Assembly: GCF_000190315.1 (NCBI RefSeq)
Contig: NC_015151.1
Location: 806,001-870,000, forward strand
DNA length: 64,000 nucleotides
Direction: 5' to 3'
DNA from: Vulcanisaeta moutnovskia 768-28
Lineage (GTDB): Archaea; Thermoproteota; Thermoprotei; Thermoproteales; Thermocladiaceae
Below the pieces are notes generated by a model. That model was not told the DNA's origin. It saw nothing but the letters and a program-made list of their open reading frames with translations, and did not search any database. A program made the position numbers and the translations under genes. The stretch's first letter is position 1. Every line of letters starts with the position of its first letter. Below, one piece after another: positions 3,690 to 9,401 of this stretch.

Positions 3690-4718
3690 ATGAGGGCTGT
3701 TGGCTTTGATAGGCATGGAGATCCCAGCGTACTTAAGGTCATGGAACTCCCAGATCCTAAGCCAGAACCTGGAGAGGTCGTTATTAGGGTTCTGGCGACA
3801 TCATTGAATAGGATTGACACTATCGTGCGTAGAGGATACCCAGGTATTCCAGTTAGGTTACCGCATGTGCCTGGCGCGGACATTGTTGGTTACATAGAGT
3901 CTATTGGGCCTAATACGGACCTTGGTGAGTTTAGGATTGGTGATTTAGTCCTTGTTAGTAATGTGTGGGGCTGCGGTTCGTGCAGGTTCTGTAAGGTGGG
4001 TATGGAGGATCACTGCCCTTCATGGACCATGCCTGGGTTCCACGTTTGGGGCGGCTATGGCGAGCTGGTTAGAGTTCCAGTTAGGGCCCTCATTAAGGCG
4101 CCCAAGGGCTTTAGTATTAATGAGATGGCCGTGTTACCACTGGCCTATGGCGTTTCCTGGAAAGCGCTGAGGACCGCCAATGTTGGTCCAGGCGACTGGG
4201 TCTTAATACTAAGTGGTTCTGGCGGTATTGGCACTGCGTTAACCATACTGGCTAAGGCATTGAGTGCTAGGGTTATTGCTGTGACGTCGAGACCTAATGT
4301 GTTGAGGTCCCTGGGCGCCGATGTAGTTGTTGGTTATGACAAGGATGAATTGATGAAGGTTATTAGCGAGAAGACTGAGTATGGTGTTGACACGGCCATA
4401 GACACCATTGGTGATACCCTACCCATGGCGCTTGACGCTATTAGACCAGGTGGTACGGTAATTACGTTTGGAATCCTCGGTAAATCACCCGCTGTACAAA
4501 TTGATATTAGGAGGTTCTACCTTAGGCATGCACAATTAATCGGTATTCACAATGCGGCTAAGTCCTACCTTAGGGAGATCATTGACTTCATGGTTAGTAA
4601 GGGTGTGAGGTCATTCATAAGTAGGGTAGCCACGGTTAAGGAGACACCAGCACTCCATGAGTTGATGGAGAGTAGGGGCGTGGTTGGTAAGGTGGTGATG
4701 ATTCATGAGTGGGACTAG
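3690..4718 (+). CDS. MDR-family alcohol dehydrogenase / quinone oxidoreductase-like
   Basis: 342 residues. The N-terminal GroES-like half contains a full structural-zinc lobe: four cysteines in WGCGSCRFCKVGMEDHC (about residues 93-109). The usual first catalytic-zinc ligand, a Cys near residue 38, is replaced in SLNRID, the pattern of quinone-oxidoreductase-type members, so a classical zinc alcohol dehydrogenase mechanism is doubtful. The Rossmann half has GSGGIGTA for NAD(P) binding. Its last codons overlap the CPBP protease gene by 14 bases, indicating co-transcription. A TATA-like CTTTAAATC lies near 3653. Substrate not predictable. Confidence 0.8.
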   Translation: MRAVGFDRHGDPSVLKVMELPDPKPEPGEVVIRVLATSLNRIDTIVRRGYPGIPVRLPHVPGADIVGYIESIGPNTDLGEFRIGDLVLVSNVWGCGSCRFCKVGMEDHCPSWTMPGFHVWGGYGELVRVPVRALIKAPKGFSINEMAVLPLAYGVSWKALRTANVGPGDWVLILSGSGGIGTALTILAKALSARVIAVTSRPNVLRSLGADVVVGYDKDELMKVISEKTEYGVDTAIDTIGDTLPMALDAIRPGGTVITFGILGKSPAVQIDIRRFYLRHAQLIGIHNAAKSYLREIIDFMVSKGVRSFISRVATVKETPALHELMESRGVVGKVVMIHEWD

Positions 4719-5325
4719 GGCTAAGACCGTGATTTACATAGCGCTGCCCCTAGTGTTGTGGCCTTTGTCCTTCGACGTGTTCAGTAGGTACTTTGTCTAT
4801 GGCATGGTACTATCAACACTACTACTTGGTTCACTATCCCTGGCCTGGTTCAGGGATAGGCTTCGGTGGTTTAGAATGAACATTGTAATAGCCGTAGTAC
4901 TTGGCCTTATTATGTCTGGGGTACTTTACATTATTTTCATAGGTGGTTACGCAATACTTAGGTACATGGGTCTCGCCAACTACGTTGTACTGGTCTACGG
5001 CATGATTAGGAGTATGACCAATGCCTATGCCCTGGCTATGGCCCTGGTTATTATTGGGTTTATGGAGGAGGTTTATTGGAGGGGTGGTCTTCAGGAATTA
5101 TCGAGGGATTTGGGTGGTGTTTTCCGTGGTGAGCCCTGGTTGGTATCAATGATTTACTACACACTTATCCATATATCAACTTTGAATCCAGCACTTATGG
5201 CCGGTGCATTTGCTATTGGGTTGATTGATGGTTTATTAGCGGATAAGGTGGGTCTAGTAACTTCAATAATAGCTCACGTGTTATGGTTGGAGTTAATGAT
5301 GGTGTTTTTACCCCTGGTTCCATGA
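4705..5325 (+). CDS. CPBP (CAAX/Rce1-like) intramembrane metalloprotease
   Basis: 206 residues with six to seven hydrophobic segments. The CPBP signature is visible in order: EEVYWRG (EExxxR motif, about 121-127), a conserved His in TLIHIS (about 153) and a last His in IIAHVLW (about 190). These residues line the membrane-embedded active site of Rce1-type glutamic/metalloproteases. In Archaea most members are uncharacterised; roles in membrane-protein processing or bacteriocin immunity are known for relatives. It overlaps the preceding dehydrogenase gene by 14 bases, and ATG 4705 is the only start consistent with a complete first helix. Confidence 0.8.
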   Translation: MSGTRAKTVIYIALPLVLWPLSFDVFSRYFVYGMVLSTLLLGSLSLAWFRDRLRWFRMNIVIAVVLGLIMSGVLYIIFIGGYAILRYMGLANYVVLVYGMIRSMTNAYALAMALVIIGFMEEVYWRGGLQELSRDLGGVFRGEPWLVSMIYYTLIHISTLNPALMAGAFAIGLIDGLLADKVGLVTSIIAHVLWLELMMVFLPLVP

Positions 5326-5397: not shown

Positions 5398-6282
5398 ATG
5401 AATAAATACGAATTTCTCGGGTTAATTAGGGCATGGAGTCTATTAATGACGGTAGCCGTCTCACTAATCGGCATTGGCTATGCATATTACCTAGGGCTTT
5501 ATTATGGACCTAGGATAATATACTCAGTATTAGCTGTAGTAGGGGCTTTAATGCTTCATGCAAGTGTCAATGTGCTTAATGACTACTACGACTTCATCCA
5601 TGGTGTAGATACGATAAGCTCACCCACGGCAATCTATAGGCATCAACCGTTGGTGATGGGTACGGTGAAACCATTCATTGTAAAGACCCTGGGCTTCTCA
5701 TTAATAGTAACTGGTGCAGCCATAGGTATTTTCCTAACGGTAATGGAGAGCTTCTGGATACTTCTACTTGGTCTTGTTGGTGTATTTTTGCTCTACGCCT
5801 ACACGGGTCCACCATTCACACTTAAGTACAGGGGGATTGGTGAGTTATCAGTTGCATTGACCTGGGGCCCATTACTAGTTGGTGGTTTCTTCGTAGCTGC
5901 ATCCGGTGGTTTATTAATACCAAGGGTCTTCCTCGTATCATTACCGCCACTCTTCATAATGTTCGCAATAATATATGCCAACAATTATAGGGATAGGGAG
6001 TATGATAGGGCGTCTGGAATAAGAACGTTAGCCATACTAACGTCTAGGCATGGTTATGGGATCTACCTAGGCTCATTAGTAACGGCGTATATAATTAATG
6101 CAATGCTCATGCTCATGGGGGTACTGCCATACACATCACTAATAACATTACTCACAGCTCTTCTAATACCGAGGTTAATAAGGGCGTTCAGAGGAAATGC
6201 CCCTGACATTGATGCAAGGACAGGGCTATTATACACAATATACTGTCTAATGTATGGAATTAGTCTCATGATACCGTGGTAA
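5398..6282 (+). CDS. UbiA-family prenyltransferase, MenA-like
   Basis: 294 residues, about eight to nine transmembrane helices. The first aspartate-rich motif is NVLNDYYD (about 58-65) and the second is NNYRDREYD followed by SGIRTLA, closely matching the motif order of MenA (1,4-dihydroxy-2-naphthoate polyprenyltransferase). Such an enzyme attaches a polyprenyl chain to an aromatic ring in the membrane, here most likely in making a menaquinone-type or thermoplasmaquinone-type quinone used in respiration. Other UbiA branches (geranylgeranylglyceryl phosphate or heme O synthases) have different second motifs. A TATA-like TATTTAAATT lies near 5367. Confidence 0.8.
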   Translation: MNKYEFLGLIRAWSLLMTVAVSLIGIGYAYYLGLYYGPRIIYSVLAVVGALMLHASVNVLNDYYDFIHGVDTISSPTAIYRHQPLVMGTVKPFIVKTLGFSLIVTGAAIGIFLTVMESFWILLLGLVGVFLLYAYTGPPFTLKYRGIGELSVALTWGPLLVGGFFVAASGGLLIPRVFLVSLPPLFIMFAIIYANNYRDREYDRASGIRTLAILTSRHGYGIYLGSLVTAYIINAMLMLMGVLPYTSLITLLTALLIPRLIRAFRGNAPDIDARTGLLYTIYCLMYGISLMIPW

Positions 6283-6332: not shown

Positions 6333-7463
6333 ATGGTATTTTCCAAGAATCCAGTGGATATTGTTAGGGATAAGAAATTCTTGCAGGGCGAGATCGCTGA
6401 CTCACTTAGGCTCGCAATAATGGCTGAGCTTGATGCCATAAACCTATACCTACAATTAGCCAGGTTGATCGATGATGAGAAGGTAAGGAAGGTCTTTGAG
6501 GATATCGCCAAGGAAGAGAAGACTCACTTCAGTGAATTTCTCACACTGCTTAAGTCATATGATCCAGAGCAGGTTGAGCAATTGAAGGCAGGTTCAACCG
6601 AGGTTAGTGAATTAACGGGTATTAAGGTGCCAGTAAATTATCCTAATAATGAACAAAAGGGAATGGGTACCGCCAACAATCCTAGTGATCCTCCACTTGA
6701 CGTAGTTTCATCATCAAATTTAAGCCCTGAGGAGCTTAGGTACTTGCAGGACAAGGTTAAGGAGGTTGCTAACAATGTGAGGAGGTTCAGGAAGTATTTA
6801 GCTACGTATGAGGCAGGGTCTGGGCTTGATGCCGTACCACTTGATGAAGTGGTTATTGGACCTTCAATAATGACAACTAGATCCGTGGTATCACTTAAGG
6901 AATTGAGCCTGAAATTCTCAATATCACAGAGACAAATTGAGTATGCCAGGGCTAGGGGTGAGAGGGTTTATTCAGCAACTGCTGACCAAGCTGCTATTAG
7001 GCTTGGTTATGAGGAGGATTTAGCAATACTTAGTGATATTCTGGGTAATCCCAAGATTAAGACCATGAACATCACATCATGGGATACGCCCAGTTCTGCA
7101 GTTACTGAGGTTTCAAATGCAGTCAATGCGTTGTATAGTAATTACATACCTGAACCATACGTATTATTCGTGAGCCCTGGCAGGTATACAAAGCTTTTAA
7201 CTGTTGTTGAGAAGACAGGTATCATGGAACTAACGAGGATTAAGTCACTGGTTAAGGATGTGGTCATTATTCCTCAGTTAAAGGATGATACAGCACTATT
7301 GTTATCAACTCATCAATCAATCATTGATGTAGCCATAGGCACGGATACAGCATTGGTATACCTAGGCCCCGAAAATGGGACTCACGGCTTCACCCTATGG
7401 GAGACACTGGCAGTAAGGGTTAAGGACCCCAGAGGTGTAATTGCCCTGAGACAAGGCACTTAG
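6333..7463 (+). CDS. Encapsulin shell protein with fused N-terminal ferritin-like domain
   Basis: 376 residues in two parts. Residues about 15-80 form a ferritin-like helical pair with E32, E62 and H65 (AELDAINLYL and AKEEKTHFSEF), the same ferroxidase residues and, strikingly, the same numbering as encapsulated ferritin EncFtn of Rhodospirillum rubrum. A flexible Pro/Asn/Ser linker (about 98-130) leads to an HK97-fold shell domain (about 131-376) with family 1 (linocin-like) features: NLSPEELRYL at its start, PLDEVVIGPS, EEDLAILSDI in the middle and a GFTLWETLAVRV strand near the end. The arrangement matches the Pyrococcus furiosus ferritin-encapsulin fusion, in which iron is oxidised and stored in a protein nanocompartment. 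It lies 50 bases after the quinone prenyltransferase gene but has its own TATA box. Confidence 0.9.
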   Translation: MVFSKNPVDIVRDKKFLQGEIADSLRLAIMAELDAINLYLQLARLIDDEKVRKVFEDIAKEEKTHFSEFLTLLKSYDPEQVEQLKAGSTEVSELTGIKVPVNYPNNEQKGMGTANNPSDPPLDVVSSSNLSPEELRYLQDKVKEVANNVRRFRKYLATYEAGSGLDAVPLDEVVIGPSIMTTRSVVSLKELSLKFSISQRQIEYARARGERVYSATADQAAIRLGYEEDLAILSDILGNPKIKTMNITSWDTPSSAVTEVSNAVNALYSNYIPEPYVLFVSPGRYTKLLTVVEKTGIMELTRIKSLVKDVVIIPQLKDDTALLLSTHQSIIDVAIGTDTALVYLGPENGTHGFTLWETLAVRVKDPRGVIALRQGT

Positions 7464-7773: not shown

Positions 7774-8223
7774 TTACCTTGAGTGGTCCTTAAGGTATTC
7801 CTTAGATCTTGCGCCTATAGCCTTTATCAATGTGAGTAGTATATACGCGCCCCGCAGTACGTCGGGGTCCCTGAGCATGCCTATGACCTTCGCTAGGCCT
7901 ACGTCATTATCTTCCAATTCCATTAATGCCCTGTCAATCTTTGGATCATTGATTGAATCCGCAATTACCTTAATAACTGGGTTACCCACAATATTATTCA
8001 TTATTTCGAGTAGGTCGCGTATCATTACTACCATGTTATCGAACATGTCATCAGTAATCACACTACTCACATCCTTCAGGGTGAGGGCTAGATCCACGAG
8101 TGTATCCAAAGCACCTGACTCATGTAGTATGATTAATTGGTCCATTAGGTCCATTATCGCCTTATCCTTATCAGCATCCTTTATTCTCTCCTCAAGGACT
8201 CTACTTGGTATCTTTATGCTCAT
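7774..8223 (-). CDS. DUF1641 family protein
   Basis: About 149 residues from ATG 8223, which overlaps the stop of the upstream flavoprotein gene in an ATGA junction; longer readings into that gene are not needed. The product is mostly helical and acidic, with the DUF1641 pattern of short repeated helices (LHESGALDTLVDLALTLKD, then a Gly-containing turn, then DPDVLRGAYILLTLIKAIG near the C-terminus). DUF1641 genes are habitually placed beside sulfide:quinone-reductase-like flavoproteins and formate-dehydrogenase-like genes, suggesting an accessory or anchoring role, but no function is proven. The tight overlap argues for translational coupling with the partner. Confidence 0.8.
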   Translation of the reverse strand: MSIKIPSRVLEERIKDADKDKAIMDLMDQLIILHESGALDTLVDLALTLKDVSSVITDDMFDNMVVMIRDLLEIMNNIVGNPVIKVIADSINDPKIDRALMELEDNDVGLAKVIGMLRDPDVLRGAYILLTLIKAIGARSKEYLKDHSR

Positions 8224-9401
8224 AGTCCTCCCCTCACCACCGCAGGTAGTGTCATGTAAAAAGCCCTCAAGAACCACCACCCAAACCTTGTTGTGATGAA
8301 CGGCATTTCATTAACAGTGTAGTTCCACCAGGGCAGCCACGCCCTGCCCCTGCCCTCATGTGTATACAGGTCTGTGAGCATTGGGCATATATCCTCACCC
8401 CTATAGATCTTCCTTGGCCCAGTCCCAAGTATGTCGGAGACCAGGTTTTCGGCAATAACATCCGCCTGGTAATGAGCTACCGACGCTGCCTTGGTCACGG
8501 GTAATGCAGTTGCATCACCAATTATGTAAACCTCCTCATACAATTCCTTGCCCTTTCGGTACCTTAATGTGCTTTTATCACCTGGTAGAAAACCGAGTGG
8601 ATCACCAAGCCCTGAATCCCTGAATACCTTGGCACCCCTGTGGGGTGGTATTGTTATTAGTAAGTCATATTTTATCTTCTCACCACTATCGCTAATGACA
8701 ACCTTCTCCTCAGCATTTACCTCAGAAACCATGAACCTAAATATATACTCAATATTTCTTTGTTCGCACATTATCTTACCAAGCCTATTAACCTCGGGTT
8801 GAGCATGCAGGTAATCTATTGGATAAAGGAGCTTTATATTGACATTACCCCTAACATTCCTATCCTTAAGGTATGAATCAAGCAATAACCCGAACTTTAG
8901 GGGGACTATTGGGCATTTTATGGGTAAATCCACGAATAACTCCACAATAGTACCCCTACTAAACCTTGAAAGTATTTCCCTTAATTCCAGGGCGCCATCC
9001 AACGTGAAGAACGTGTGATAATCCTTCATTAATCCAGGTACCTCCTGCGGCGCAAACTCAGCCCCCGTGGCAATAACGAGGTAATCATAGTTATACTTAC
9101 TCCCGTCAGCAAATCCCAATTCCCTATTCCTAAGGTCAATACTTACTAACTCACCCTTAGGACCGTGGTAAAACTTAATACGGGGATCAAGCAACTCGCT
9201 CTTCCTCCATCTAGCATGCTCCTCACTTAATGAGTTAAATACTATGAGTGGGTACATTGCCTGGACAAGGAAATCATTATCCTTATCAAAGACCCTAATC
9301 TCCGCATCACCCCTAGCTAACTCCCACCTCAGTCTCCTTGCAAGTTTATTGGCAACCTCAGCGCCAGCGAAGCTCGCACCAACAATGGCAATCCTCTTCA
9401 T
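8220..9401 (-). CDS. FAD-dependent oxidoreductase, sulfide:quinone reductase-like
   Basis: 393 residues. The N-terminal FAD-binding motif is IVGASFAGAEVANKL (about 5-19), the second dinucleotide region includes YDYLVIATGAE, and a third FAD contact is VYIIGDATALP (about 294-304). A single cysteine in DLPIKCPIVP (about 159-168) occupies the region of a redox Cys of SQR-type enzymes; a clear second active-site Cys is not evident, so it may be a divergent SQR or a related NADH/quinone oxidoreductase. Aromatic residues near the C-terminus (FGWWFLRAFYMT) could be the membrane-touching amphipathic end typical of SQR. It is followed by DUF1641 with a 4-base overlap. Likely role: delivering electrons from reduced sulfur to the quinone pool. 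Confidence 0.75.
   Translation of the reverse strand: MKRIAIVGASFAGAEVANKLARRLRWELARGDAEIRVFDKDNDFLVQAMYPLIVFNSLSEEHARWRKSELLDPRIKFYHGPKGELVSIDLRNRELGFADGSKYNYDYLVIATGAEFAPQEVPGLMKDYHTFFTLDGALELREILSRFSRGTIVELFVDLPIKCPIVPLKFGLLLDSYLKDRNVRGNVNIKLLYPIDYLHAQPEVNRLGKIMCEQRNIEYIFRFMVSEVNAEEKVVISDSGEKIKYDLLITIPPHRGAKVFRDSGLGDPLGFLPGDKSTLRYRKGKELYEEVYIIGDATALPVTKAASVAHYQADVIAENLVSDILGTGPRKIYRGEDICPMLTDLYTHEGRGRAWLPWWNYTVNEMPFITTRFGWWFLRAFYMTLPAVVRGGL

Follow-up and report, generated by a model that had tools for sequence, protein, structure and literature searches.

Flp-fusion encapsulins have been a defined type since 2021; all of them are archaeal, most come from Crenarchaeota, and those of Pyrococcus furiosus and Sulfolobus solfataricus form T=3 shells (PMC8346489). 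According to a 2024 review, the motif DxxxEE62xA/TH65 is the signature of the archaeal fusion-Flps, the fusion peptide of the known ones measures 8 aa, and short, tail-less Flps occur in bacteria (3k6c; PMC11202242). In EncFtn of Rhodospirillum rubrum, two chains hold iron between their residues E32, E62 and H65, Y39 being near, and EncFtn alone does not mineralise iron (PMC5012862).

We analysed a stretch of 64,000 nucleotides (the window; bases 806001-870000) of a genome that is a single contig of 2,298,983 bp. The named close relatives of this genome are Vulcanisaeta, which agrees with the Thermoproteales host proposed in an earlier note made from the sequence. That note had read one gene of 376 residues as a fusion of ferritin-like helices to an HK97-fold encapsulin, a reading that the intact open reading frame, Pfam and NCBIfam, PDB matches, two AF2 models and Foldseek all bear out. 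It had also presented the gene as a novelty for a crenarchaeon, which it is not: since the Flp-fusion type has already been described as the usual crenarchaeal form, the Vulcanisaeta gene is a further example and not a discovery. Among the papers searched, none pairs encapsulin with Vulcanisaeta or Pyrobaculum, but this gap concerns only which organisms have been listed and not the kind of system.

Results

The gene (Table 1) starts with ATG and encodes 376 aa in an intact frame with zero internal stops. Profile searches, which had been set beforehand as a test, found both an encapsulin and a ferritin-like domain in this single frame, the ferritin-like domain N-terminal and the shell C-terminal, as in Flp-fusions. 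For the family 1 shell, two encapsulin profiles scored above their curated cut-offs: Linocin_M18 (PF04454) at residues 128-360 (Pfam; E = 4.5e-29, 101.9 bits, cut-off 24.3) and the NCBIfam equivalog encap_f1 (110.3 bits, cut-off 100). The ferritin-like half matched Rubrerythrin (PF02915) at residues 24-84 above cut-off (E = 3.4e-8). The dedicated models for EncFtn and EncB stayed below theirs, namely EncFtn-like PF22277 at residues 28-85 slightly (23.2 bits, cut-off 27; Pfam), and EncB_fam (77.4 bits, cut-off 90) and TIGR04535 (55.3 bits, cut-off 125) in NCBIfam; these cut-offs are an annotation convenience, not a biological definition, and those from NCBIfam are models of cargo that exists as a separate protein. 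The label "EncFtn-type" is used here because the protein matches the solved fusion domain 5n5e strongly in both sequence and fold. The encapsulin profile match that had been foreseen was thus found, in PF04454, the right Pfam model; PF11553, the family named beforehand, is not known as the encapsulin family.

A sequence search of the PDB returned the virus-like particle of P. furiosus (2e0z, 1.3e-51) and its excised ferritin domain (5n5e, 1.9e-27). Both halves match their own families as well as one P. furiosus protein, which supports a Flp-fusion encapsulin and confirms the P. furiosus-like layout that had been proposed; the matches of the gene product to the encapsulin and ferritin-like families are far above chance.

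Table 1 Features of the encapsulin locus (positions in the window)
Feature	Position	Strand	Basis or remark
ADH gene	3690-4718	+	upstream of encapsulin gene
CAAX-protease-like protein gene	4705-5325	+	upstream of encapsulin gene
UbiA gene	5398-6282	+	upstream, 50-bp gap to encapsulin gene
Flp-fusion family 1 encapsulin gene	6333..7463	+	ORF; PF04454, PF02915, encap_f1; PDB 2e0z/5n5e; AF2 and Foldseek
EncFtn-type ferritin-like domain, residues 1-98	6333..6626	+	5n5e sequence match 3-98; AF2 pLDDT 81.7; Foldseek
Codon for ferroxidase ligand E32	6426..6428	+	translation; invariant in 32 fused and 22 stand-alone homologues
Codon for Y39, ferroxidase-centre tyrosine	6447..6449	+	translation; fused and stand-alone homologues; role from R. 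rubrum (PMC5012862)
Codons for E62-K-T-H65, ExxH ligand motif	6516..6527	+	translation; fused homologues; motif in PMC11202242
Linker, residues ~99-128, predicted disordered	6627..6716	+	AF2 pLDDT <50 at 90-128; G96-to-R150 spacing
HK97-fold encapsulin shell domain, residues ~128-376	6714..7460	+	PF04454 128-360; Foldseek 2e0z, TM 0.87 by target
DUF1641 protein gene	7774-8280	-	downstream, opposite strand; overlaps sulfide:quinone-reductase-like gene
Type III sulfide:quinone-reductase-like protein gene	8220-9401	-	downstream; match below profile cut-off

Structure prediction of both halves agreed with the profiles. The full-length AF2 model (19 sequences; mean pLDDT 80) places a hairpin at residues 18-76 and a short helix up to 95 ahead of a disordered stretch, which leads into a confident HK97 fold; pLDDT values in the shell region are mostly 88-96. 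All Foldseek matches listed for this model were encapsulins or engineered encapsulins, so that AF2 and Foldseek together assign the HK97 fold of a family 1 shell. The ferritin half modelled alone (24 sequences; pLDDT 81.7) has helices at 18-45, 49-76 and 78-95, and its best Foldseek match was 5n5e (E = 9.2e-8, 57% identity), followed by EncC/EncB of Myxococcus xanthus and EncFtn of R. rubrum.

This half carries E32, E62 and H65 on a helical hairpin with a short third helix, the make-up of an EncFtn domain. That the numbering equals that of R. rubrum EncFtn had been pointed out before and is correct (PMC5012862); Y39 is present as well. The ligand residues are predicted to cluster in the fold, given the match to 5n5e and their equal height on both helices of the hairpin. 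In all 32 fused archaeal homologues (41-84% identity to the Vulcanisaeta protein) E32, Y39, E61, E62 and H65 are invariant, and so are A31 and D34 in the archaeal fused set. The outer-site motif reads D57xxxE61E62xT64H65, in keeping with the signature of the archaeal fusions.

The nearest solved relatives are the shell (2e0z) and ferritin domain (5n5e) of the P. furiosus Flp-fusion encapsulin, likewise one gene with an N-terminal EncFtn domain, E32/E62/H65 and a following HK97 shell. By structural alignment, the identity of 57% holds for the ferritin halves, whereas the shells, with a TM of 0.87 by target, are only ~24% identical in sequence. Unlike in P. furiosus, the Vulcanisaeta linker is longer and predicted to be disordered; the spacing from G96 to R150 is 53 aa in this protein and the closest Vulcanisaeta, and 29-51 aa in other homologues. 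From the crenarchaeal Flp-fusion encapsulins, including that of S. solfataricus (PMC8346489), with the same architecture in the same phylum, we found no difference of substance. R. rubrum EncFtn (5da5) shares the numbering of E32, Y39, E62 and H65 and the fold of two helices plus a short helix, but its E31/E34/H57 are A31/D34/D57 in Vulcanisaeta. Because A31 replaces E31 of the secondary metal site, iron entry may differ from that in R. rubrum.

Of 397 Thermoproteota genomes that were at least 85% complete, 148 had a match to the Vulcanisaeta protein and 76 carried a PF04454 shell. Match and shell co-occurred in 73 genomes, a count of co-occurrence rather than of fusion; 75 had a match without a detectable family 1 shell, a search count from which 22 proteins were inspected. 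These 22 are stand-alone ferritin domains of about 93-115 aa; E32, Y39, E62 and H65 are present in every one, and none has a tail resembling a targeting peptide. Such domains were seen in G030, G031, G033, G036 and other genomes (loci L088-L101, L052, L054-L062). A second shell profile, NF041155, recovered the shells of two fused controls but none in the 15 shell-less genomes searched, which include several finished ones; the family 2 shell profile PF19307 had no match in 17 genomes and none in any control either. A tree of the ferritin domain, built on 100 columns and leaving 24 of its 51 inner branches open, holds three to five switches between fused and stand-alone forms, for which it does not give the direction. 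A gene that reads as Nudix-like by its sequence adjoins the stand-alone domain in Thermofilum-like genomes, and in some Sulfolobales MAGs one of the same kind follows the fused gene downstream (loci L088-L092; L045, L046, L049).

Genome G067, which belongs to another family of the order, has at locus L006 a fused encapsulin 78% identical to the Vulcanisaeta copy and grouping with Vulcanisaeta (support 97/81). Monophyly of the six copies of G067's family was rejected with a p-AU of 0.031; since the group was picked with the identities already known, we give this rejection modest weight. It is likely that the gene was transferred horizontally, either from another family or into one. The finished genome G051 of the same genus has no match to the encapsulin, hence the genus can do without the gene, the loss of which seems to be common. 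In Vulcanisaeta sp. JCM 14467 (L037, 5980-7130) the frames of the encapsulin gene and of neighbouring genes are broken, perhaps by a draft-assembly error, and in G038 (L025) only a 3' fragment of the encapsulin gene is left, with a stop.

The host genome has no other family 1 shell by PF04454 search and no cage ferritin; PF00210 matches one protein only, a rubrerythrin whose gene adjoins that of a Fur-type regulator. A 375-aa protein that joins a ferritin-like domain to a VIT1 membrane domain (L086, 784-1911, minus strand; genome region 765651-766025) is a candidate MbfA-like iron exporter, and a gene similar to it is located near several stand-alone ferritin genes.

A shell whose main task is defence against oxidative stress or, in the manner of rubrerythrin, against peroxide, and which stores iron only secondarily, would fit the Rubrerythrin score of the ferritin-like half in Pfam and the operons that Flp-fusion encapsulins often share with ferritin-like or rubrerythrin genes (PMC8346489). 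But here the adjoining genes include neither a rubrerythrin nor a ferritin, the host rubrerythrin is encoded far off, and the EncFtn hairpin carries the ferroxidase set; we regard peroxide defence as the main function as possible but rather unlikely. Encapsulins and HK97 phage capsids share fold and ancestry (PMC8346489), and the HK97 gene could then be a provirus relic, a remnant or domesticated viral capsid instead of an encapsulin compartment. This is very improbable in view of the score above the equivalog cut-off of encap_f1, the encapsulins at the top of the Foldseek matches and the fused ferritin domain, whose ligands are intact and conserved across the phylum; moreover, no virus-type family recurs around the homologues and no viral gene is among the immediate window neighbours tested. 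The quinone biosynthesis gene next door had been mentioned as part of what would be notable, but a functional tie to this UbiA cluster, suggested by the same strand and the short gap, is hardly credible: UbiA, CAAX and ADH genes adjoin the encapsulin gene in one other locus only, that of JCM 14467, and unrelated genes surround it in V. distributa, Caldivirga and others. Overlapping antisense ORFs aside, each neighbour family is confined to at most 4 of the 20 loci, a search for conserved operon partners found none, and we consider UbiA incidental because its adjacency is not conserved among relatives.

Discussion

Very probably, then, the gene at 6333-7463 encodes a family 1 encapsulin of the archaeal Flp-fusion type, with a role in iron storage or detoxification. 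With gene, domains, fold, ligand conservation and phylogenetic spread established here, shell assembly and iron loading can be sketched after the homologues. The HK97-fold part would assemble icosahedrally, most probably as a T=3 shell of 180 subunits like that of P. furiosus, and the shell would carry inside it an N-terminal ferritin-like domain on every subunit; because each subunit bears this domain, the enzyme would load automatically and a targeting peptide would be unneeded. By analogy with R. rubrum, M. xanthus and P. furiosus, two domains would pair and pool E32, E62 and H65 in a two-fold symmetric di-iron ferroxidase centre, at which Fe2+ would be oxidised, the Fe3+ mineral being retained within the shell. 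The flexible linker of roughly 30 residues probably allows the tethered domains to reach their partners despite the mismatch between decamer and shell symmetry, a mismatch that its length may ease. As the genome has no cage ferritin, the host may store its iron mainly in the encapsulin.

The shell-less relatives lead further. At low confidence, and as an unlikely rather than an expected outcome, we suggest that the ferritin domain of Thermoproteota exists in alternative genome-level states, either fused to a shell or, in the proteins inspected, stand-alone without a detectable family 1 shell, and that the stand-alone form oxidises iron without a shell or occupies an unrecognised compartment. 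The latter option is worth testing because nanocompartments of 35-40 nm were described in 2025 in Tardisphaera, a member of the Thermoproteota with ferritin-like genes and no detectable encapsulin (PMC12542729). Since R. rubrum EncFtn alone is non-mineralising, a widespread shell-less form raises the question of the fate of the oxidised iron. With tail-less bacterial Flps on record, the shell-less kind has a partial precedent, and for archaea descriptions of it are few.

The Vulcanisaeta protein would be one more self-loading iron compartment of a described class and, being hyperthermophilic and long-linkered, a candidate for cryo-EM that bears on the way in which a T=3 shell accommodates decamers of ferritin domains. 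Its shell-less relatives matter more than the fused gene itself.
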